The position numbers and the translations under genes are program-made. From Acidobacteriota bacterium (GTDB lineage: Bacteria > Acidobacteriota > Thermoanaerobaculia > UBA5066): a DNA stretch of 42,513 nucleotides. The stretch is from positions 1 through 42,513 of the forward strand of contig JAKPXO010000269.1 in the NCBI GenBank assembly GCA_029567505.1, given 5' to 3'. Positions 28,268-38,170 of the stretch are shown piece by piece. Within the stretch, counting starts at the first letter, position 1; every line of letters starts with the position of its first letter. A model generated the notes under the pieces. The model was not told the DNA's origin. It saw nothing but the letters and a program-made list of their open reading frames with translations, and made no database searches.

Positions 28268-28305
28268 GGCGCCGAGATTACTCCGGAGCCGGGGTAACGG
28301 GAGCC

Positions 28306-28364
28306 GGGGTCAGGCGTGAAATCGTGTATTGTCTTCGACAACACACGATTTCACGCCTGACCCC
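28306..28364. repeat. REP-like palindrome, copy 1
   Basis: A 59-bp inverted repeat between mfd and the EfpL-type gene. Arms of 28 nt run from GGGGTCAGG to CCTGACCCC with one A/G mismatch and a TTC loop. The inner part is CGTGTATTGT paired with ACAACACACG. On the left it is preceded by two copies, 15 bp apart, of GGAGCCGGGGT (28285-28295 and 28300-28310), the second overlapping the foot. Related to the copies at 29093 and 38076. Confidence 0.9.
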
Positions 28365-28397
28365 GCGACCCGACGGGCGCCGCACGTGTCGCTGCCC

Positions 28398-28403
28398 TAG
28401 AAT
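28398..28403 (+). promoter_or_regulatory. Candidate -10 element (TAGAAT) of the EfpL-type gene
   Basis: TAGAAT lies 56 nt before the ATG at 28460, downstream of the palindrome. No good -35 is seen, but the same hexamer also stands before enolase in this window, so it may be a usual -10 form in this host. GAAGGGAGAGC before the ATG serves as ribosome-binding site. Confidence 0.4.
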
Positions 28404-28459
28404 CCCGCCCCTCCGCCGTTCCGGACAGCGGCCCGGCAGCGGCGCGACGAAGGGAGAGC

Positions 28460-29035
28460 ATGGCGAGTCTCATCGAAGCGATCGAAATCAAGAAGAAGAG
28501 CTTCTTCGAGCACGAGGACGATCCGTACCTCTGCCTCGACGTCACGGTCTCGACTCCGACGGCGCGCGGAGGGCAGACGCTCGTCCGTCTGAAGATGCGG
28601 AACCTGAAGACCCGCGCCGTCTTCGACAAGACGTTCAAGGCCGGGGAGAAGTTCAAGGAGCCCGACCTCGGGAAGGTCCAGGCGACGTTCCTCTACTCCG
28701 ACGCCGACGGCTTCCACTTCATGGACCAGGAGTCGTACGACACGCTCACGCTCTCGGCGGAGATGATTGGCGAGAACCGGTTCCTCCTCGTCGAGAACAC
28801 CGTCGTCGGGCTTCTGAAATTCAACGGCAACCCGATCGACCTCGACCTGCCGCCCCACGTCGAGCTGACGGTGACCTACACCGAGCCCGGGCACCGCGGC
28901 GACACGTCCAGCGGCGGCGTGACGAAGGCCGCGACCCTCGAGACGGGAATGGAGATCCGCGTCCCGCTCTTCGTGAAGGAGGGCGACCGGGTCAAGGTCC
29001 ACACCGAGACCCGCGAGTTCGCCGGAAGGGCCTGA
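28460..29035 (+). CDS. efpL: Elongation factor P paralogue, EfpL/YeiP type
   Basis: A 191-residue three-domain protein of the EF-P/eIF5A family, which relieves ribosomes stalled at polyproline. Domain I (about 1-68) carries the tip loop STPTARGGQT (31-40), which matches the SPTARG loop of YeiP/EfpL. Canonical EF-P has a modified Lys in PGKGQ; here Arg36 is at the tip, so no lysine modification is expected. Domains II and III are conserved (YSDADGFHFMDQESYDT; GHRGDTSSGGVTKAATLETG; final REFAGRA). It is monocistronic and flanked by two palindromic repeats. A standard EF-P may be elsewhere in the genome. Confidence 0.88.
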   Translation: MASLIEAIEIKKKSFFEHEDDPYLCLDVTVSTPTARGGQTLVRLKMRNLKTRAVFDKTFKAGEKFKEPDLGKVQATFLYSDADGFHFMDQESYDTLTLSAEMIGENRFLLVENTVVGLLKFNGNPIDLDLPPHVELTVTYTEPGHRGDTSSGGVTKAATLETGMEIRVPLFVKEGDRVKVHTETREFAGRA

Positions 29036-29092
29036 TTCCGGGACCCGACCCGTCGGCGGGGTCGACCGGCGGGAAGGGGGGACACGGGAAGG

Positions 29093-29151
29093 GGGGACAG
29101 GCGTGAAATCGTGTATTGTCTCCGACAATACACGATTTCACGCCTGTCCCC
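29093..29151. repeat. REP-like palindrome, copy 2
   Basis: A 59-bp inverted repeat with perfect 28-nt arms (GGGGACAGG ... CCTGTCCCC) and a TCC loop. The core is CGTGTATTGT/ACAATACACG. It differs from copy 1 in the foot (A for T), with the matching change on the other arm. Two copies of GGGAAGGGGGGACA, 15 bp apart (29071-29084, 29086-29099), precede or overlap it, the same arrangement as in copy 1. Confidence 0.92.
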
Positions 29152-29199
29152 GAGTTCGCTGCCCCCGAGGCTCGCGCGGGCGCGGCCCGGCGGGCGGCC

Positions 29200-29580
29200 T
29201 CAGGCCGCGCGGGGCCGGTGGTGCCACAGCAGATGGCCGTGCAGCCCCACGGCGGCGACCGTCGGCAGGAAGAAGACCGCCTCACCCGCCTCGCGGGGCA
29301 AGCCCGTGGCCCACAGCACCACGACCAGGGCCGCCCCGTTCAGGGCGACGAGGATCCCGGCGCAGACGAGCCGTGCCCGTGGGAGGAAAGCACACGCGAC
29401 GAGCGCGAGGACCAGGAGGGCCGCGAGCGGGAGCCCCGAGGCGAACGCGTAGACGAGCTGGTAGAGGAGCGTGAAGACGTTCCGGGTGGCGATCGCGTGT
29501 CCGAGCGCGAGGACTCCCACCGCGAACGCCAGGACCGGCGCCGACAGGATGAGCCCGACGAGGTAGGCGAGGGCCTTCAC
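29200..29580 (-). CDS. Small membrane protein of unknown function
   Basis: A 126-residue hydrophobic protein with four predicted membrane helices (about 5-28, 38-62, 68-88 and 98-120), ending in HGHLLWHHRPRAA. I do not recognise a family. The start is GTG 29580. It follows the porin gene on the same strand after a 25-nt gap, so the two are probably co-transcribed, and it may support the envelope function of the porin. The His-rich end is the only notable feature. Confidence 0.6.
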   Translation of the reverse strand: MKALAYLVGLILSAPVLAFAVGVLALGHAIATRNVFTLLYQLVYAFASGLPLAALLVLALVACAFLPRARLVCAGILVALNGAALVVVLWATGLPREAGEAVFFLPTVAAVGLHGHLLWHHRPRAA

Positions 29581-29605
29581 GCGCCGGGGATCGGGGGCGG
29601 CGAGG

Positions 29606-30943
29606 TCAGAAGCCGGCCCGGAGCGTGACCAGGAGCTCGTCGGGGTGGAGCGTCCTGCCCCAGACCTCCATGTCGTGACGGGCGTACTCGGCCGTCAGGT
29701 CGACGTTCCGGACGATACCGACGCGGAACCCGAAGTCGATCTTCGTCCAATCCCACGCGAAGGAGGGAGAGAACGACCCGGCGGGGACGGAGAAGTCGTT
29801 GTCGATCCGCGAGACGCGGACGGCCGGCTGGACCCAGTTGAACCACGGCTGGTCGCCGACGGCGAAGAGACCGTTCAGCGGGATGCGGTAGGACGCCTCG
29901 ACCTCGTAGCCCTTCCTCACGAGCCCGGCGACCTCCTGGCGCACGTACTGGCCGAAGAGCGAGAGGCGATCCCACCGGGCCTCGACGTTCACGCCCGCCT
30001 CGGTCTTGTCGCGCCCGTCGAGCAGGTCCACCCTCCCCGCCAGTCCGTCGTCGAGAAGGTCGAGGTCGCCGCCGTAGAGGCTCCCTTCGATGTCCACGTG
30101 GTCCGCGAGCTTCCGGTGGAAGACCCAGCCGAGGAGGTCGATTCCCTTCCGTCCGTCGTCCGACACGAAGCGGACGCCGAGCCCGCCTCCGCCCTGCGCC
30201 TTGCCGGAGAGGCGTGTGTCGTTCGCCTGCGCGTCATAGAAGACCGGGAATCCCGAGTTGTAGGGCGCCTCGCCGAGGCGCGCGAGATCCACCCGTTCCG
30301 GCGTCCCGTTGTCGCCGGCGAGCGAGTTCGTGTCCCGCAGGAAGAGCGGGTTCCCGTTCGCCGCCGCCGCCCTCCAGTAGAGGTGCTTGCCGAGGCTCCC
30401 GCCCGCCTCGACGCCGATCTCCTCGAAACGGTTGACGGCGGTCCCCCAGAGACCGTAGCTCTCGAGTCGGCGGGTCGTCTGCTTGGCGAAGCGGGGGGCC
30501 TTCCCCGCCTGCACGTAGAGGGACGTCCCTTCGAACGCCTTCAGCCCGTCGACACGCTTCCCGAACCGGAGCCACGCCTCTCGCACGCGCACCTCATCGC
30601 CCGTCGACGTCGGGTTGCGGTTGTAGAGGTCGATGAAGTGGATCTCGACCTTCGCCTTCAGGCCGTCGGTCAGGTCCCCTTCGCCGATCAGGTTCACCGT
30701 CGAGACCTCGAACGAGCCGCCGGGATCGGTCGTTCGCTGGTCGATGTCGACGTTCCCGATCCGGCCGACCGTCACGTAGTGGTCCTTCGAATGGCGGAAG
30801 TGGACCTTGACCTCGCCCTTCAGCCGGAATCGGCCGTCGCCGGTCGCGAGGCCGCCCGATTCCTGGGCGGTCGCCGCAGGCGACGCGGTCGCAAGAAACG
30901 CGAAGACGATGCAGTTCGACGCGAGGCGAGCCCGAGCGCGCAT
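29606..30943 (-). CDS. Phosphate-selective-type outer-membrane porin (OprO/OprP family)
   Basis: A 445-residue beta-barrel protein with a signal peptide (about 1-27, ending ATAQE) and many alternating amphipathic strands. Family-like features are the N-terminal FRLKGEVKVHFRHS strand, FEVSTVNLIGEGDLTDG, KVEIHFIDLYNRNP, VREAWLRFG and the C-terminal strand LLVTLRAGF, which ends in Phe as needed for recognition by BamA. It should form a trimeric anion-type channel; selectivity for phosphate is not certain from sequence. AGGAGG precedes the ATG, and TAGGAT at 30976-30971 may be the -10. A small membrane protein follows. Confidence 0.83.
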   Translation of the reverse strand: MRARARLASNCIVFAFLATASPAATAQESGGLATGDGRFRLKGEVKVHFRHSKDHYVTVGRIGNVDIDQRTTDPGGSFEVSTVNLIGEGDLTDGLKAKVEIHFIDLYNRNPTSTGDEVRVREAWLRFGKRVDGLKAFEGTSLYVQAGKAPRFAKQTTRRLESYGLWGTAVNRFEEIGVEAGGSLGKHLYWRAAAANGNPLFLRDTNSLAGDNGTPERVDLARLGEAPYNSGFPVFYDAQANDTRLSGKAQGGGGLGVRFVSDDGRKGIDLLGWVFHRKLADHVDIEGSLYGGDLDLLDDGLAGRVDLLDGRDKTEAGVNVEARWDRLSLFGQYVRQEVAGLVRKGYEVEASYRIPLNGLFAVGDQPWFNWVQPAVRVSRIDNDFSVPAGSFSPSFAWDWTKIDFGFRVGIVRNVDLTAEYARHDMEVWGRTLHPDELLVTLRAGF

Positions 30944-31060
30944 GCGAGGCCTCCTTCCGACAGTGGCCGGATCCTACCAAGGCCCGCGCCCGGGGAGCGA
31001 TCGGCGCGGGAACCGACCCATCGGTCCCCGCGCGGCGGCGACCGCGGACCCCTCCTCCCC

Positions 31061-31066
31061 TACAAT
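31061..31066 (+). promoter_or_regulatory. Candidate -10 element (TACAAT) of phaR
   Basis: TACAAT lies 25 nt before the phaR ATG, in the gap between the divergent porin and phaR genes. It predicts a start near 31073 and a short leader with a strong GGAGGAAG ribosome-binding site. No -35 match is evident. Confidence 0.4.
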
Positions 31067-31091
31067 CCCGGCACAACCCGGAGGAAGCGTC

Positions 31092-31646
31092 ATGACCCAG
31101 CCCGTCGTGGTCCGGAAGTACGAGAACCGCCGTCTCTACGACACCTCGTCGAGCCGCTACGTCAACCTGCCCGAGATCGCGCAGCTGATCCGGGAAGGGA
31201 CCGAGGTCCAGGTCGTCGACGCGAAGAGCGGCGACGACATCACCGCGGTGATCCTGACGCAGATCATCCACGAGGACGCGCGGGCGAAGCGGGGCGACCT
31301 CCCGATTCCGTTCCTGCGCGAGCTCGTCGTCGCCTCCGACCGCGCCTTCCGCGACTTCGTCGTCTGGTACGCCGACGCCGCGCTCTCGGCGCAGCGCGGC
31401 GCGAAGGAGGCGTTTCCCCCGCTCGCGCACGTCCTGCCGTTCCTCGAGAAGACGCTCGAAGGGCTGAAGGTGAAGGCGGCTCCGGCGGCGAAGCCGGAGC
31501 CAGCGGACGACGTCGCGGCCCTGAAGGAGAGGATCGCCGAGCTCGAGGAGCGGCTCGGGGCGGCGCGTCCCCCGCGACGCAAGGCGCCCGCGGCGGCGAG
31601 CGCGCCCCGCCGGGGCGGAAGGCGCGCTACGCCGCGACGCGGGTGA
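31092..31646 (+). CDS. phaR: Polyhydroxyalkanoate synthesis regulator PhaR
   Basis: A 184-residue protein with the PHA-accumulation regulator DNA-binding domain (about 5-67: VVRKYENRRLYDT, SRYVNLPEIAQLI, VQVVDAKSGDDIT) and a following PHB_acc-type segment (ILTQIIHEDARA onward). The C-terminus has a coiled coil (ALKERIAELEERLG) and a basic Ala/Arg-rich tail. In PHB-producing bacteria PhaR represses phasin and its own gene and binds the polymer. No PHA synthase or phasin gene lies in this window. The ATG at 31092 has GGAGGAAG upstream. The end overlaps the convergent kinase gene by 20 nt. Confidence 0.92.
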   Translation: MTQPVVVRKYENRRLYDTSSSRYVNLPEIAQLIREGTEVQVVDAKSGDDITAVILTQIIHEDARAKRGDLPIPFLRELVVASDRAFRDFVVWYADAALSAQRGAKEAFPPLAHVLPFLEKTLEGLKVKAAPAAKPEPADDVAALKERIAELEERLGAARPPRRKAPAAASAPRRGGRRATPRRG

Positions 31647-33801
31647 GGGCCGCGTAGAGGTCGGAGGCGCTCGCCGGGCGTCTCTCGGGTCGCTTGGACA
31701 GACACGCGAGGACGATCCGGTCGAGGTATTCCGGCAGATCGGGCCGGAGCGAGGAGGGGCGCGGAGGCTGCGCCGCGACGTGGCTCTGCATGACGGTCGC
31801 CGCGTCGGTCCCCGGGAAGGGGCGCTCCCCGGTGAAGAGCTCGAAGAGGACGACGCCGACGGTGTAGAGGTCGCTGCGCGCGTCGAGCCGCTGGCCCAGC
31901 GCCTGCTCCGGGCTCATGTAGTACGGCGTGCCGACGGTGTGGCCGTCGAGGGCGCCGTCCCCGCCCTCGTCGGTCCGGGCGATCCCGAAGTCCATCAGCT
32001 TCACGACGCCGTTCGGCAGGACCATGATGTTCTGAGGCTTGATGTCGCGGTGGATGATCCCCGCCTCGTGCACGGCCGTGAGGCCGCGGCAGAGCTGCTT
32101 CGCGATCTGGAGCCCCGGGGCGAGGGCGACGGCCCCCCGCCGGTCGAGCAGCTCGCGCAGCGTCGTCCCCGGGACGTACTCCATCGTCAGGAAACGGACG
32201 CCGTCCGCCTCGCCGAGGTCGTGCGTGCGGACGACGTTCGGGTGCGTGATCTTCCGCGCGAGGCGGATCTCCTGCTTGAGCGTCTGTGTGGCCTGGGTCC
32301 CCTCGGAGAACGCCTCCGGGGTGAGGACTTTTAGCGCCACCTCTTCGTCCAGCTCGCGATCGAGAACCTGGTAGACCGAGCCCATGCCGCCGCGGCCGAG
32401 GACGGAGACGACGTCGTAGCGCCCGGCGAAGAGCGCTCCGACGCGGGGCCCTCGCGCCGCCGCGTGGGCGGCGTCCGCGGGAAGCGTCCCGGCCGCGGTC
32501 ACCGAGGTCGGGGCCAGGCCTCGCGTCGCTTCGGCCGGCCGCCTCCGCATCTCGGCGAGGAGCTCCTCGAGCTGCCGCTTCTCGCGCAGCTCCCCGACGA
32601 GGGCCTCGAACGCGCGGGCGAGGACGCCGACCTCTCCGCTCCCTCCCGACGGCAGCTTCACGTCGAGGTTCCCGTCGCGGACGGCGATCGCGCCCGAGGC
32701 GAGCTGCTGCAGAGGCCGCGCGATCCGGCCGCCGAGGAGGAAACTGACCGGGACCGAGACGAGCAGAATGCCGAGGCCGACGAGGAGGAGCGTCTCGCGG
32801 ATCTTCCGGAACGCGGCCGTCTCCTCGTCGCGCGAGCGCGAGACGACGACGGCGCCGAGCGTCTCTCCCCCTGCCGAGCGGAGAGGGACCGCCTTGACGA
32901 CGCGCCGGTCGCCTCCGACGAGGAGGTCGAGCGGCGCGGCGTCGGCATTCCCGTCCAGCAGCCGGCTGTGGCCCGACGGGTCGCGGGCGAGCGCCGGAAG
33001 GAGGCTCGCGGCGCCGAACCCCTCCGTCGCAGCCGCGATCTCCAGCTTCGCCGGCTCGCCCTTCCTCCCCGTCTCGGCGACGAAGGCGACCTGACCTCCC
33101 GTCAGGTCGCGGAGCTCGCGTGCCCGCGCCTCGTCCAGGAGGACCGACGCGGCGACGACGCCGACGAGGCGGGCCTCCCCCTTCTCCGGGTCGCCGGCCA
33201 CGACCGGGGCCGCCGCCACGACCGCGAGCGCTGCTCCCTCGCGGATCGTCGCGGAGGACTCGGTCCAATCCTCGAGCGGCGAGGCGACCCAGGCGACCTC
33301 GCGGAACGAGCGCCGGTCCTCCTCGGTCGGCGGCTGGTCGCTCCGGGCGACGAGGACGCCGGCGCGGTCGAAGAAGAAGAAGGTCTTCGCCTGGAGGATC
33401 TCGGCCTTGTCCTTCGCGGTGTCCCAGACGGTGGCGGCCGGAGAGTCGAAGATCGCCTTGATGCCGGGCTCCTCCGCCACAGACCGGAGCGTCGCCTTCA
33501 GCTGAGACTCGAGACCGGCCCGGAAGACGGCGACGTCTCCCGGGATGGTCCGAAGCGCTTCGCGGATGCTCTCCTCGGCGATCCGGTTCGCGCGCCAGGT
33601 GGAGAGCGCCACCGCGGCTCCGAGGGTCACGACGACGAGGAGCGCCGCGGCGAGGAAGAACTGCGTGCCGAGTCGGACCCCTCCCGGTTTCGGCGCCGCC
33701 GCGCCGCGAAGAGGCGGCCCCGACGCCCCGGAGGAGCCCTCGCGCGGTGCGACCACCGTCGGGAGGTCGTCGGAGCGGCGGGATTCAGTAGCGGTTCTCA
33801 T
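31627..33801 (-). CDS. Membrane sensor serine/threonine protein kinase
   Basis: A 724-residue kinase with its sensor at the N-terminus. A cytoplasmic Pro-rich stretch (1-43), TM1 (44-66), a periplasmic Cache-like region (about 67-330), TM2 (337-358), HAMP (about 358-410) and a linker lead to the Hanks-type kinase domain (about 461-722). Catalytic residues are complete: glycine loop LGRGGMGSVY, Lys491, HRDIKPQN (584-591), DFG (604-606) and GTPYYMSPEQ. Most bacterial Ser/Thr kinases have the kinase first and the sensor outside at the C-terminus. Here the Cache-HAMP input resembles that of chemoreceptors and histidine kinases. It overlaps the cupredoxin gene by 17 nt. Confidence 0.93.
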   Translation of the reverse strand: MRTATESRRSDDLPTVVAPREGSSGASGPPLRGAAAPKPGGVRLGTQFFLAAALLVVVTLGAAVALSTWRANRIAEESIREALRTIPGDVAVFRAGLESQLKATLRSVAEEPGIKAIFDSPAATVWDTAKDKAEILQAKTFFFFDRAGVLVARSDQPPTEEDRRSFREVAWVASPLEDWTESSATIREGAALAVVAAAPVVAGDPEKGEARLVGVVAASVLLDEARARELRDLTGGQVAFVAETGRKGEPAKLEIAAATEGFGAASLLPALARDPSGHSRLLDGNADAAPLDLLVGGDRRVVKAVPLRSAGGETLGAVVVSRSRDEETAAFRKIRETLLLVGLGILLVSVPVSFLLGGRIARPLQQLASGAIAVRDGNLDVKLPSGGSGEVGVLARAFEALVGELREKRQLEELLAEMRRRPAEATRGLAPTSVTAAGTLPADAAHAAARGPRVGALFAGRYDVVSVLGRGGMGSVYQVLDRELDEEVALKVLTPEAFSEGTQATQTLKQEIRLARKITHPNVVRTHDLGEADGVRFLTMEYVPGTTLRELLDRRGAVALAPGLQIAKQLCRGLTAVHEAGIIHRDIKPQNIMVLPNGVVKLMDFGIARTDEGGDGALDGHTVGTPYYMSPEQALGQRLDARSDLYTVGVVLFELFTGERPFPGTDAATVMQSHVAAQPPRPSSLRPDLPEYLDRIVLACLSKRPERRPASASDLYAALTRVAA

Positions 33802-34684
33802 CGTCGTCCGGAGGCGGATAGTCCTTCCCGTGCTTGTTCTTGTGCGGCGTCTCCTTCCACTTCGTGGCGTCCAGCGTCACGGAGACGTCCGTCGTCCCGC
33901 CCGCCGCCACCGAAGCGGTCCCGCTCCACTCCCCGCCTCTTTCGTCCCAGACCTTCACGGCGTGCCGGCCCGCCGGGACCGCCGCGATCGTCGCCACGCC
34001 GTCCGCCCCGGACTGCGCGAAGAGCTCGCCGTCGAGGACGACGACGTAGGCCGCCATCTGCGGGTGGATGTTGCAGTAGACGCGGACGACACCCGCCTCC
34101 GCGAAGCGGGTCGTCCGCGCCGCTCCGTTCCGGTAGAGGCCCAGGTCGAACCGCCCCGGCTCCGACAGGCTGAAGACGTTGTGGAAGATCTTGTCGAAGT
34201 TCGGGAAGGAGACGGCCGCCCCCTTCGGCACCGCGAGGACGCGCGGCTCGAACCGTTTGTCGCGCGAGGCCATCTTCGGAGGCGGCGCCCCCCGGCGGGC
34301 CCGGCTTCCCGGAAGCCAGGCGACCGCGTCGGGCGCGGGGAGCGTCCGGCCGTCGGACCCCGTGACGAGGACCTTCACGCGCAGCGTCCCGGTCGGGATC
34401 GGCGTCGGAGTCGGCCGCGGCGTCGCGGTGGGAATCGGCGCTGGCGTGGACGTCGGCGTCGGCGGGACGAGGGGTGCCTCCGGCGCCTCCGCGCCCGGCG
34501 TCGGCAGGACGGCGGACGCATCCGGCTCTTCCGCGATCGCGGTCGGCGCGACCGTCGGCGCCGGAGCCGGAGTCGCCGTCGGTGTTGGCGTCGGCGTCGG
34601 CCGGCGGCGCTTCCACCACGACCCCGCGGCCGGGGCCTGGAGGAGCAGCACGGCCGCGAGCGCGGCCACGAGGAATCTCGACAT
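33785..34684 (-). CDS. Exported cupredoxin-like protein with Pro/Thr-rich linker
   Basis: A 299-residue exported protein. The signal peptide (1-21) is followed by a long linker of PT and PA repeats (about 29-98), then a beta-domain with the pattern of a type 1 copper site: His168 in KIFHNVFS, Cys204, His207 and Met210 in VYCNIHPQM. A small carboxypeptidase-regulatory-like fold follows (about 222-272, GVATIAAVPAGRHAVKVWD), then a charged tail (KNKHGKDYPPPDDD). It may carry electrons or bind copper in the periplasm; the linker suggests attachment across the envelope. Its end overlaps the sensor kinase gene, so the two are likely co-expressed, and the kinase may respond to it (inference). Confidence 0.8.
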   Translation of the reverse strand: MSRFLVAALAAVLLLQAPAAGSWWKRRRPTPTPTPTATPAPAPTVAPTAIAEEPDASAVLPTPGAEAPEAPLVPPTPTSTPAPIPTATPRPTPTPIPTGTLRVKVLVTGSDGRTLPAPDAVAWLPGSRARRGAPPPKMASRDKRFEPRVLAVPKGAAVSFPNFDKIFHNVFSLSEPGRFDLGLYRNGAARTTRFAEAGVVRVYCNIHPQMAAYVVVLDGELFAQSGADGVATIAAVPAGRHAVKVWDERGGEWSGTASVAAGGTTDVSVTLDATKWKETPHKNKHGKDYPPPDDDENRY

Positions 34685-34701
34685 CCGGGACGGGGCGGAT
34701 T

Positions 34702-35877
34702 CTAGTCCCGGAGCGACTCGTTCTCGGAACGGAGCCGGCGGACCACGGCAACGACCTCGGCCGCCGCCTCGTCGACCTGTCCTTCGGACGTGAAGCGACC
34801 CACGCCGAAACGCAGCGTCGCCTTCGCGAGCGGCTCCGGGAGGCCCAGTGCCCGCAGGACGTGGCTCGGCTCCCCGCTCGCCGTCGTGCAGGCCGAGCCG
34901 GAGGAGACCGCCACGCCGCGCAGCGACGATACGAGTCGCGAGCCGTCGACGCCGGCGAACGAGAGGCTCAGGTTTCCCGGGAGCCGGTCCGGCCCGGACG
35001 GCGGGCCGTTCGACGTGACACCGTCGAGGGAGGCGCGGATCGCGGTCTCGAGCCGGTCCCGCAGCCGGCCGAGGCGCTCGGCCTCCGCCTCCCTCTCGCG
35101 TCGCGCGATCCGGACGGCCGCCGCGAAGCCGACGATTCCGGGAACGTTCAGCGTCCCCGACCGCAGCCCCCGCTCGTGTCCGCCGCCGTGCAGGATCGGG
35201 GCGAGCGGGACGCGTGGCCGGGAGCGGACGAAGAGCGCCCCCACCCCCTTCGGTCCGTAGAGCTTGTGGGCGCTGAGGGACGCGAGAGCGACGCCCCCGC
35301 CGACCCCGAACGGGACCTTCCCGAAGGCCTGAGCGGCGTCGGTGTGGAAGGCGAGCCCCCGCTCCGCGCAAAGGGCGGCGATCCGGCCAATCGGGTTCAG
35401 CGCTCCGACCTCGTTGTTCGCGGCCATCACGGAGACGAGGATCGTCCGGTCGGTCAGCGCCGCCTCGACGCTCTCGGGCGAGACGCGCCCCTCCCGGTCC
35501 GGCGGGACGAGCGTCACCTCGAAGCCCTCCGCCGAAAGGGCGCGGCACGGGTCGAGGACGGCGCGGTGCTCGACGGCGGAGGTGACGACGTGCGCCCCGG
35601 TCCGGCGCGCGGCGCGCGCGAAGCCGAGGATCGCGAGGTTGTTCGACTCGGTCGCCCCCGACGTGAAGACGACCTCGCGGGGCGCGGCGCCGAGCGCCTC
35701 CGCGATCTCCTCCCGGGCGGCGTTCACGGCGCTCTCGGCCGCCCAGCCGTAGGCGTGCTGGAGCGACGCCGCGTTGCCGAACTCCCCCATGAGCCAGGGG
35801 AGCATCGCCTGAAGGACGCGCGGGTCCAGCGGCGTCGTCGCCTGGTGGTCCAGGTAGACGGGCCGCCGGCGGCTCAC
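34702..35877 (-). CDS. iscS: Cysteine desulfurase (IscS/NifS family)
   Basis: A 391-residue PLP enzyme that takes sulfur from cysteine for Fe-S clusters and thiolation. The N-terminus is VYLDHQATTPLD. PLP-binding features are SGATESNN, EHRAVL (His stacking on PLP), TDAAQAFGKV and the lysine in LSAHKLYGPKG. The catalytic Cys is in SSGSACTTASGEP, on a loop like that of group I IscS/NifS enzymes. GTG 35877 overlaps the stop of the Rrf2 gene (GTGA), so Rrf2 and desulfurase are coupled. No IscU, IscA or ferredoxin gene follows; the next gene is the cupredoxin-like one. Confidence 0.94.
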   Translation of the reverse strand: MSRRRPVYLDHQATTPLDPRVLQAMLPWLMGEFGNAASLQHAYGWAAESAVNAAREEIAEALGAAPREVVFTSGATESNNLAILGFARAARRTGAHVVTSAVEHRAVLDPCRALSAEGFEVTLVPPDREGRVSPESVEAALTDRTILVSVMAANNEVGALNPIGRIAALCAERGLAFHTDAAQAFGKVPFGVGGGVALASLSAHKLYGPKGVGALFVRSRPRVPLAPILHGGGHERGLRSGTLNVPGIVGFAAAVRIARREREAEAERLGRLRDRLETAIRASLDGVTSNGPPSGPDRLPGNLSLSFAGVDGSRLVSSLRGVAVSSGSACTTASGEPSHVLRALGLPEPLAKATLRFGVGRFTSEGQVDEAAAEVVAVVRRLRSENESLRD

Positions 35878-36317
35878 GGCGCGGCGCCGGCCGTCCCGGT
35901 CCCGCGGGGGACGGGGACGTGAAGCAGGTCCTCGAGCGAGACCGCGTCGAAGGCGCCGTTCACGAGGTGGTTCAGCCGGCGCATCGCGTCGGTGGCGACG
36001 CAGAAGGGACGCGTCCGGCAGCGCCCGGTCGCCGTGCCGGCGGCGCAGAAGGTGAGCGAGATCGGCCCCTCGAGCGCGGTGACGATCGCGCGGAGGGTGA
36101 CGTCCGCTGCGGGCCGGGCGAGTCGATACCCCCCACGGCTCCCCCTCTCGGAGGAGACCAGTCCGGCCCGGGCGAGCCTCTTCAGCACCTTCGCGACGAT
36201 GGTGGCGGATACGCCGAAAGCGGCAGCGAGCTCGGTGGTCGAAACGCACGCGTTGCGGCGCGCGATCTCGGTCATCACGAGGATGCCGTAGTCGACGATG
36301 CGGTTGAGCTTCAGCAT
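35874..36317 (-). CDS. Rrf2-family Fe-S cluster regulator (IscR/SufR-like)
   Basis: A 147-residue winged-helix repressor. The chosen ATG 36317 gives the normal Rrf2 N-terminus MLKLNRIVDYGILVMTEIAR; the open frame extends 27 codons further but past the promoter. The recognition helix region is STTELAAAFGVSATIVAKVL, followed by the RGSRGGYRLARP wing. Three Cys (F-C-x8-C-x5-C, in the region SLTFCAAG to RPFCVA) are well placed to hold a [2Fe-2S] cluster, so it should sense Fe-S status. Family knowledge predicts control of its own operon with the desulfurase. Confidence 0.92.
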   Translation of the reverse strand: MLKLNRIVDYGILVMTEIARRNACVSTTELAAAFGVSATIVAKVLKRLARAGLVSSERGSRGGYRLARPAADVTLRAIVTALEGPISLTFCAAGTATGRCRTRPFCVATDAMRRLNHLVNGAFDAVSLEDLLHVPVPRGTGTAGAAP

Positions 36318-36336
36318 CGCGGACCCCCGATCGGCC

Positions 36337-36365
36337 ACTATAGGCCCGGAAAGGTGCGGGTTCAA
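36337..36365 (-). promoter_or_regulatory. Sigma70-type promoter of the rrf2-iscS operon
   Basis: On the minus strand TTGAAC (36365-36360), a 17-nt spacer and TATAGT (36342-36337) form a good -35/-10 pair. The predicted start is near 36330, giving a leader of about 13 nt. The promoter lies in the 67-bp gap to the divergent ThyX-like gene, so Rrf2 binding here could affect both directions. Confidence 0.72.
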
Positions 36366-36384
36366 TTCGCGGGAATCGGGGGGC

Positions 36385-38031
36385 ATGACGCCCGTCACCC
36401 CTTCCGCCTTTCAGAACGTAGACTCCCGCCGCGTGCCCCCGCTCCTCTCCCCCCTTCCGCGCGTCCGCCTCGTCGACGCCTTCGCACGGCCGTTCGACGG
36501 CGTCGTCGCGGCTGCCCGGACCTGCTACAGCCCGAAGGGGATCGTCACCGTGGACGACGTCGCGGGGGACCCCCTCGCCGACCCGGCCGAGCGCGCGCGC
36601 CGGCGCGAGAGGCGGGACGCCCTCGCCCGGGACGTCTACGCCGCCGGCCACCACACCACCTTCCAGCACGCCCACCTGCAGTTCTCGCTCGAGAACGTCA
36701 GCCGGCAGCTCGTCTGGTCGTTCCTCCACGCCCACCCGCACTACAACTCCGAGCAGACCTCCCAGCGCTACGTCGAGGTGAAGCCCGGCCGCTACGCCGT
36801 CCCGGCGCTCGCCGGCGAGGCGCTCGAGCTCTATCGCGCCTGCTGCGAGATGCAGACGGACGCCTACCGACGGCTCGGCGACGTCCTCGTCCCCCGCGCC
36901 GCGCGCGCCTTCTTCGCGACCTTCCGCGGCCGCGCCAGCCAGCCCGAGCGCTGGGAGAAGGCGATCCGGAAGCGGGCCCTCGAGGTCGCGCGGTACGTCC
37001 TGCCGGTCGCGACGTTCACCACGCTCTACCACACCGTCCCGGCGCTCACGCTCCTCCGCTACCGGCGGCTCGCCGCGACGTTCGACGCGCCGACCGAGCA
37101 GCGGGTCGTCGTCGAGGCGATGACCGACGAGCTCCTCCGGCACGACCCCGCCTGGGCCGCCGTCCTCCAGGAGCCGATCCCGCTCGAGGAGACGCCGGAG
37201 CACGCCCTCGCCGAGCGCCTCTTCTCCTCGCCCCGGCGCGACCGCCCGGGCGACGGCTCGTTCCGCTCCCGGTTCGACGCCTCCCTCGAGGGCCGCGTCT
37301 CGAAGCTCGTCGACCGCAAGGCGCGCAACGAGGAGCTCCTCGCCGAGGCGGTCCGCGAGGTCGTCGGCGTCACGCCCGAGACGCTCTCCGACGACGACGC
37401 GATCGCCCTCGCCGTCGACCCCGCCGCGAACCGGCTCCTCGGCGAGTCGCTCAACCTGACCGAGCACGGCAAGGTCTCCCGCGCGCTCCACCACCCGGCG
37501 TACACCTTCCGGAAGCGGCTCTCGCACACCGCCGACAGCCAGGACCAGCGGCACAGGGCGACGCCCGGCTCCCGTCCGACGCTCCACGCCTACCTCTCCG
37601 ACGAGCCCGACTACGTCACCCCGATGCTCCTCGAGGAGCCGGGAGAGGCCCGGACGCTCTACGACGAGACGATGGCGCGGACGTGGGAGGCGATCGCCCG
37701 CCTCGGCGCGTTCGGCGTGCCGGACGAGTGGCGGGCCTACCTCCTTCCGAACGCCGTCGCGCTCCGCTTCACCGAGTCGGCCGACCTCGCCGGCCTGAGG
37801 CACAAGCTCGCGATGCGCCTCTGCTGGAACGCGCAGGAGGAGATCTGGCGCGCCTCGGTCGACGAGGCCGAGCAGGTCCGCGAGGCCGAGCCGCGCATCG
37901 GCCGCTGGCTCCTCCCCCCCTGCGGGCTCCGCGCCCGCGCCGGCGCGAAGCCGACCTGCCCCGAGGGCGAGCGCTTCTGCGGCGTCCTCGTCTGGAAGCA
38001 GGACCTCGCCGCCTGGCGCCGCCTCCTCTGA
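36385..38031 (+). CDS. Double-domain ThyX-like protein (FAD-dependent thymidylate synthase family)
   Basis: A 548-residue protein with two ThyX-like halves (about 15-270 and 285-540); ordinary ThyX is about 220-260 residues and makes dTMP with FAD and methylene-THF. In the first half the sequence after ENVSRQLVW reads HAH (115-117) where RHR is expected, then SEQTSQRY (122-129). In the second half, after KVSRALHHP, RKR (376-378) stands at the RHR position and QDQRHR (386-391) where E-x-S-x-R-Y is expected. By eye neither half has the full motif, so activity is uncertain. It may be a divergent ThyX subfamily. The start is ATG 36385 after a GGGGGG stretch; it is divergent from the Rrf2 gene. 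Confidence 0.8.
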   Translation: MTPVTPSAFQNVDSRRVPPLLSPLPRVRLVDAFARPFDGVVAAARTCYSPKGIVTVDDVAGDPLADPAERARRRERRDALARDVYAAGHHTTFQHAHLQFSLENVSRQLVWSFLHAHPHYNSEQTSQRYVEVKPGRYAVPALAGEALELYRACCEMQTDAYRRLGDVLVPRAARAFFATFRGRASQPERWEKAIRKRALEVARYVLPVATFTTLYHTVPALTLLRYRRLAATFDAPTEQRVVVEAMTDELLRHDPAWAAVLQEPIPLEETPEHALAERLFSSPRRDRPGDGSFRSRFDASLEGRVSKLVDRKARNEELLAEAVREVVGVTPETLSDDDAIALAVDPAANRLLGESLNLTEHGKVSRALHHPAYTFRKRLSHTADSQDQRHRATPGSRPTLHAYLSDEPDYVTPMLLEEPGEARTLYDETMARTWEAIARLGAFGVPDEWRAYLLPNAVALRFTESADLAGLRHKLAMRLCWNAQEEIWRASVDEAEQVREAEPRIGRWLLPPCGLRARAGAKPTCPEGERFCGVLVWKQDLAAWRRLL

Positions 38032-38047
38032 CCCACCCCCTCGGGAT

Positions 38048-38170
38048 GGGGTCAGGTTCGCTTTCCATTGGAGCCGGGGCCGTGTCTGCACTCGTGTATT
38101 GTTTCGAAACAATACACGAGTGCAGACACGGCCCCTCGAGCACGAAAGTCACAAAACAAGACCTGACCCC
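38048..38170. repeat. Composite palindromic repeat, copy 3 region
   Basis: An outer pair GGGGTCAGG (38048-38056) and CCTGACCCC (38162-38170) encloses a perfect 60-bp palindrome at 38076-38135 (GGGGCCGTG ... CACGGCCCC). The core CGTGTATTGT/ACAATACACG is the same as in copies 1 and 2, but the 13-nt middle arm differs. The palindrome foot is preceded by GGAGCCGGGG (38070-38079), the same flank as copy 1. The outer pair repeats the foot of copy 1, so this looks like one element inside another. It fills the gap between the ThyX-like gene and the ankyrin gene. Beyond it, CCCCACTGGGG is repeated. Confidence 0.85.

Follow-up and report, generated by a model that had tools for sequence, protein, structure and literature searches.

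How can a palindrome differ from its nearest relatives along much of its stem and still keep its two arms complementary? The question is raised by the window analysed here, a 42,513-nucleotide (nt) stretch that forms contig C227 of a 5.1-Mb genome (G000) from a species of Thermoanaerobaculia (Acidobacteriota), in which three palindromes of 59, 59 and 60 bp share a foot and a core. A first-pass annotation had proposed a fixed foot and core with an interchangeable 13-nt middle arm, kept complementary by selection on structure or by a copying process such as hairpin-templated repair or transposition. The palindromes themselves, and the single mismatch reported for one of them (copy 1), were confirmed, and the 10-nt core with at most one mismatch occurs six times against 0.07 expected. 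Folded as single-stranded DNA with one flanking base per side, the three have energies of -34.3, -36.2 and -37.8 kcal/mol, with z of about -14 to -15. The matching change across 13 paired positions was overstated, as in the middle arm copy 2 departs from copy 1 at a single position and copy 3 at 7 of 13. We find that the palindromes are very probably non-autonomous hairpins made of two terminal inverted repeats (TIRs) of a TIRtron, a transposon of the Y1/HUH class encoding the transposase TIRYT, with the gene missing and each half representing one transposon end. On the arm comparison, the apparent interchangeable arm is a pair of TIR families with a common foot and core, family A (copies 1 and 2) and family B (copy 3).

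Palindrome halves bracket a Y1 transposase gene

A Y1 tyrosine transposase gene, which the first-pass annotation had suggested looking for in the form associated with repetitive extragenic palindromic (REP) sequences, was found bracketed by the two palindrome halves. On contig C364 of G000, a Y1_Tnp gene with a Bac_DnaA_C C-terminus lies between GGTGCCAGGCGTGAAATCGTGTATTGTT and the same sequence in inverted orientation, with about 1.08 kb between the two; these arms are perfect TIRs of 28 bp, identical to the halves of the commonest palindrome, and the same layout recurs in two relatives (L052, L053). The predicted transposase (P0001) matches PF01797 (E 3.5e-15) and, at its C-terminus, PF08299 Bac_DnaA_C (36.1 bits), both above cut-off, and the motifs NHVH and YIHRNP are readable. 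The gene stands at the corresponding place in the congeners G001 and G003, with G000 and G001 matching on both flanks and G003 on the right flank only, and its ratio of nonsynonymous to synonymous divergence (dN/dS) of 0.06-0.15 indicates that it is under purifying selection. Judged from its sequence, the system is that described as TIRtron/TIRYT by Di Nocera et al. (2013; PMC3733652), whose transposase Quentin et al. (2018; PMC6006769) later assigned to TnpAY1 subclass 2.1. With this origin, the arms of a palindrome would match because both descend from TIRs of one family, and different arms and feet would reflect different TIR families.

Further families can be tied to Y1 genes in the same way: GGGGTCAGGTCTTGTATTGTGACTTTCG behind a Y1 gene on C132 is the family-E end, GGGGTCAGGTCCGTTTTCCGTTGAAA forms the TIRs of a Y1 gene in G003 (family D), and GGGGTCAGGTCTACCATCTTC lies ahead of a Y1 gene on C23 (family F). 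The motif GGGGWSAS, given in its source for some TIRs only, fits copy 1 (GGGGTCAG), copy 2 (GGGGACAG) and families D, E and F, and is not fitted by the autonomous family-A end (GGTGCCAG) or copy 3 (GGGGCCGT). Y1 genes beyond the family-A one occur on C23 and C132 of G000, C68 of G001, C541 of G002 and C611 of G003, with different GGGGTCAGGTC-type ends where these are readable, and each may have its own hairpin population.

Families of hairpins within one genus

We compared G000 with three congeners (G001, G002 and G003) among 148 genomes searched overall, gathering palindromes and arms by core and arm pattern searches. The genomes compared are fragmented assemblies, two of them metagenome-assembled, and orthologous sites were assigned by the similarity of their flanks; because some sites enter several comparisons, the counts below are not counts of independent events. 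The four genomes hold 64 palindromes, 60 of family A and 4 of family B, together with 41 single arms, some of which terminate complete elements or form repeat units adjoining a palindrome; 20 of the family A/B palindromes are in G000. All four genomes of this one Thermoanaerobaculia genus contain the core palindrome, and a search of 144 other genomes found none. TIR families and subfamilies differ in foot (GGTGCC, GGGGTC or GGGGAC) and arm (A or B), and the loops of the 59-60-bp palindromes are mostly 3-4 nt. Five further palindromes in G000 belong to family E, of which G001-G003 have no copies. When about 780 kb of three congeneric genomes, on contigs selected for holding family members, were scanned without any pattern, all near-perfect hairpins with arms of at least 18 bp belonged to families A, B or E.

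Arms match mostly by descent and are rewritten at the tip

The 60 palindromes of family A have 50 deviating cells that are matched across the two arms, where shuffles give 14.7, and a further 41 that deviate on one arm only. Subfamily states (foot GGTGC or GGGGT, GCAAT, GAATT) account for most of the matched cells. Setting these aside, pairs 1-22 of the 56 standard-length palindromes contain 2 matched and 22 one-sided cells; pairs 23-27, beside the loop in the same palindromes, contain 12 matched and 18 one-sided cells, where 0.64 matched would be expected for independent arms. The identity of family-A arms is therefore mostly inherited, and genuine paired rewriting is seen at the tip. In the small sample of family E, three of the five copies carry private matched changes, with one mismatch.

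These counts divide the first-pass annotation's claims. Arm covariation is present at the tip and not supported for pairs 1-22, where the ordinary unpaired mutations that the annotation had named as part of the evidence to the contrary do exist. Hairpin-templated copying fits the private matched changes near the tip, whereas most matched differences are inherited founder states. Free exchange of middle arms within one family gives way to a difference between TIR families or subfamilies; what does stand is an exchange of whole elements, and it takes place between species at fixed sites.

Sites are shared while their occupants change

Of the 20 family A/B palindromes in G000, 19 have a palindrome at the matching position in one or more congeners, in some cases with a match on one flank only. 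Between orthologues 3.3% of sites differ in the arm bodies and 45% in the central five bases; the TIRYT gene, for comparison, differs at 19-29% of its synonymous sites. The first 10 flanking nucleotides have a mean identity of 0.57 between orthologues, the level of unrelated flanks under the same alignment, and identity climbs to about 0.82 beyond 80 nt. The loops of orthologues are somewhat more alike than non-orthologous loops (sampling fraction about 0.01), which argues that the sites are inherited; complete inversion of a loop between orthologues was not seen.

The occupants of these sites are less constant, the foot being identical in just 51% of orthologous pairs. A comparison of presence and absence, which the first-pass annotation had suggested for strains, was made across sister species and found copies 2 and 3 each missing from some congeners and the copy 1 site occupied in G001 and G003. 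At that site, the foot is GGGGTC in G000 and GGTGCC in both G001 and G003. G001 and G003 lack copy 2, and G002 has a single arm near its place; copy 3 is shared with G003 and absent from G001, where a D arm remains. Of the five sites of family E, a newer TIR family, three (E2, E4 and E5) are occupied in a congener by arms that belong to different TIR families, E1 corresponds only to a degenerate GGGGTCCGG in G001, and E3 to none.

Two further observations concern particular sites. A family-A subtype of G001, in which the foot is GGTGCC and the loop is closed by a C-G pair, is present at four to five G001 sites and in no GGTGCC copy of G000, which suggests a lineage-specific subtype spreading over old sites. 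Synteny breaks at the palindrome of G000:C376:3221-3279 (L045), whose left flank is orthologous to G001 C10 and G003 C53 and whose right flank matches G003 C332, which suggests a rearrangement there.

Flank duplications stop at the foot

Many palindromes are bordered by short tandem duplications that combine flank and foot. At copy 2 the duplicated unit CGGGAAGGGGGGACA is exact and 15 bp long, made up of 8 flank and 7 element nucleotides, with the inner unit overlapping the foot. A 14-nt word of 8 flank and 6 element nucleotides is repeated within 11-45 nt, with at most three mismatches, at 58 of 125 palindrome flanks; the same loose test gives 7 of 235 equivalent foot words elsewhere and 118 of 5548 random positions. 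When exact runs of at least 11 nt are required, 29 of the 125 palindrome flanks qualify; among single arms the figure is 1 of 34 (Fisher p 0.006), and among random positions 16 of 15,044. In these 29 flanks the period is mostly 13-16; 21 of them have a flank part of 7-9 nt, and 25 an element part of 6 or 7 nt. Because run length is close to the period, there is little microhomology. Unit number at a single site varies among genomes (one in G000, one in G003 and two in G001 at one site; one in G000, two in G001 and three in G003 at another), and the duplications thus arise in place. The ends of complete TIRtrons showed no flank duplications, but with six flanks only the difference was not significant (p 0.34), so this comparison was not used.

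No abutting direct repeat of at least 4 nt, as a target-site duplication would leave, was found at any of 63 palindromes (0.5 expected by chance), which is the expectation for Y1 chemistry, and no inverted similarity was found between the two flanks of a palindrome. As a separate candidate, the eight flank nucleotides were considered as a mobile tail carried between loci; this was rejected, as sharing shows no excess within a genome (13 of 2134 pairs) over that between genomes (35 of 5523 pairs). Larger tandem units with about 17-27 nt of arm plus flank were also seen, at L189 (G001 C36), L125 (G003 C332), L210 (G003 C47) and L141 (G001 C520), one of which adjoins a single arm instead of a palindrome.

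Foot cutting by TIRYT and its alternatives

Any account of these elements starts from their established features, namely TIR-TIR anatomy and origin, a cognate gene, distinct families, shared sites with changing occupants, foot-bounded duplications and rewritten tips. We propose that TIRYT, supplied in trans, would recognise the single-stranded hairpin and cut near its foot, after element base 6 or 7 and about 8 nt outside. Rejoining at the cut points within a site would generate tandem units of eight flank nucleotides plus foot while the site stays occupied, rejoining at the foot would let elements with the same foot replace one another, and hairpin-templated copying would rewrite the tip. To foot cutting and rejoining by TIRYT we give about an even chance. 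A bolder form makes the 6-7-nt foot both the cleavage site and the landing site: an excised hairpin would leave its foot behind, another hairpin, from that TIR family or a different one, would land there, and sites long fixed would exchange their occupants in a kind of cassette exchange by single-strand transposases. Such foot-targeted replacement we regard as rather unlikely. The likelihoods that we attach to TIR-TIR origin, to these two proposals and to the slippage discussed below belong to readings that are not all mutually exclusive.

By analogy, the sharp boundary of the duplications agrees with REPIN excision in Pseudomonas, which leaves the last ~6 bp behind and in which pairing of a 5' tail with the target has been proposed (PMC3116915), and with the cleavage of TnpAREP beside hairpins (PMC8266576). 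Several points nevertheless weigh against our proposal. The autonomous family-A foot, GGTGCC, lies outside the published GGGGWSAS motif, and no autonomous element with family-B arms was found in the searched genomes. An intermediate carrying the eight flank nucleotides to new places is unsupported, because these nucleotides do not travel between loci. In addition, both the duplications and the tip changes could come about when a polymerase slips or switches template at a hairpin.

Replication slippage at the hairpin is indeed the main rival to foot cutting, and a serious one for the duplications and the tips. It keeps the TIR-TIR origin and leaves the transposase idle after insertion, while the replication machinery rebuilds flanks and tips, with a polymerase that stalls in the hairpin base and slips back by about 15 nt and with template switching inside the hairpin that rewrites the tip. 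Duplications that are local, lineage-specific and rarer at single arms are consistent with this idea, as are private matched changes located at the tip and looser duplicated units that take in more of the arm; template switching is known to homogenise the arms of inverted repeats and invert spacers (PMC8604942) and can maintain hairpins (PMC8794818). However, the idea fits poorly with an inner boundary as sharp as that of the exact units and with run lengths that approach the period with so little microhomology; it leaves unexplained why a site can change its foot type or its TIR family, and no orthologous pair showed a clean loop inversion. We place slippage somewhat below an even chance.

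Alternatively, the palindromes may be structures selected by the host, such as bidirectional terminators or protein-binding hairpins, with selection on the fold keeping arms matched and sites fixed. Sites conserved between species and arms that evolve far more slowly than synonymous sites favour this view, as does gene context: the 36 palindromes with two called neighbours comprise 20 between convergent, 12 between tandem and 4 between divergent genes, compared with 70, 208 and 53 of 331 background gaps under simple calling of open reading frames (ORFs) (Fisher p 2e-5 for convergent genes). The same enrichment is expected, however, from selection against harmful insertions. The three copies have no T tract, no terminator call on either strand and no Rfam family, and copy 1 lies upstream of efp. 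Moreover, it is the arm sequence that is conserved and not pairing alone, compensatory changes in the stem body are rare, and feet and families switch at a site, all of which makes host selection improbable as the explanation. Slightly less probable still is continuous arm-to-arm correction along the whole stem, the first-pass annotation's reading, which can draw on the excess of matched cells over shuffles and on the private matched changes at the tip and in family E, but which is at odds with the preponderance of one-sided changes in pairs 1-22. Three unrelated terminators, finally, are rejected on the ~780-kb scan of contigs selected for holding members, in which every long near-perfect hairpin was part of this system, and on the lack of any terminator or Rfam call at the copies.

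If TIRYT does cut at the foot, the foot-bounded duplications would be a natural record of where it may do so, in agreement with the ~6-bp footprint of REPIN excision reported in 2011. Hairpin tips, flanks and sometimes arms that change at fixed sites would thus hint at the cutting place of a little-studied transposase family, for which we found no mechanism in the open-access papers searched. Relative to that literature, the flank duplications and the apparent exchange of occupants are new. Fixed sites with changing occupants, if true, would bear on how populations of REP-like repeats persist for very long periods without free spread.

Layout of the window

The features on which this analysis is based are collected in the table. 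An arm related to the family-D arm beside copy 3 is present in G001 and duplicated in G003, and an end matching the family-E arm on the other side also lies behind the Y1 gene on contig C132 of G000. Upstream of this cluster, positions 36298-38031 (+) hold a 577-aa ORF with two Thy1 (ThyX) stretches, which exceeds the length that one Thy1 domain needs.

Table. Palindromes, duplicated units and single TIR arms in the window
Feature	Position	Length	Strand	Description
Copy 1, left flank	28283-28305			Imperfect extra unit; outer foot-like GGGGT at 28291-28295; period 15
Palindrome copy 1	28306-28364	59 bp		Family A; foot GGGGTC; loop TTC at 28334-28336; one A·C mismatch, 28328/28342
Tandem duplication at copy 2	29070-29099			Exact; units of CGGGAAGGGGGGACA at 29070-29084 and 29085-29099
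Palindrome copy 2	29093-29151	59 bp		Family A; foot GGGGAC; loop TCC; perfect; between convergent genes
Single arm, TIR family D	38048-38071		+	GGGGTCAGGTTCGCTTTCCATTGG; adjoins copy 3; family-D TIRs bracket a Y1 gene in G003 (L182)
Palindrome copy 3	38076-38135	60 bp		Family B (GGGGCCGTGTCTGCACTCGTGTATTGTT); perfect
Single arm, TIR family E	38143-38170		-	GGGGTCAGGTCTTGTTTTGTGACTTTCG; other side of copy 3 from the D arm

Comparison with known systems

The palindromes do not fit an intrinsic terminator, a GC-rich stem followed by a T tract; the three copies give no terminator-like call on either strand. Quasipalindrome correction and template switching (PMC8604942, PMC8794818) share with our palindromes the matched rewriting of arms and the fast change of the spacer, but private matched changes in family A are confined to the tip, and the exchange of foot and family is not accounted for. 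As short non-coding elements of two TIRs, the palindromes resemble the miniature inverted-repeat transposable elements of DDE-type insertion sequences, from which they differ in relying on a Y1 instead of a DDE transposase and in having no target-site duplication. Unlike IS200/IS605 elements, which have subterminal hairpins and no TIRs, the elements described here have perfect TIRs at their ends.

The likeness is closer to REPINs and their REP-associated tyrosine transposases (RAYTs), as described by Bertels and Rainey (2011; PMC3116915). These, too, are non-autonomous inverted pairs that form hairpins, with a single-copy Y1 gene in trans; they are mostly extragenic, leave a remnant of about 6 bp at one end on excision, and occur in clusters repeated with flanking DNA. 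Yet our units start with GGTGCC or GGGG instead of carrying a GTAG tag, the whole element folds as one with a very short loop instead of having a separate small hairpin in each half, and the transposase belongs to a Y1 subclass different from that of RAYTs, with a DnaA-like domain.

The closest counterpart is TIRtron/TIRYT. It has the Y1 transposase with a DnaA-like C-terminal domain, a feature of subclass 2.1, and a gene bracketed by long TIRs (here 28 bp and perfect) instead of GTAG REPs; a GGGG[AT]CAG-type foot recurs in several families, TIRs are repeated in the genome as dimers (20 palindromes in G000, 64 in the four congeners), and Acidobacteria are among the known hosts. The present system departs from those described in that its TIR pairs are collapsed to near-perfect palindromes of 59-60 bp, its autonomous family-A foot is GGTGCC, and it combines foot-bounded flank duplications with a change of TIR family at fixed sites, neither of which is described in the open-access papers searched.

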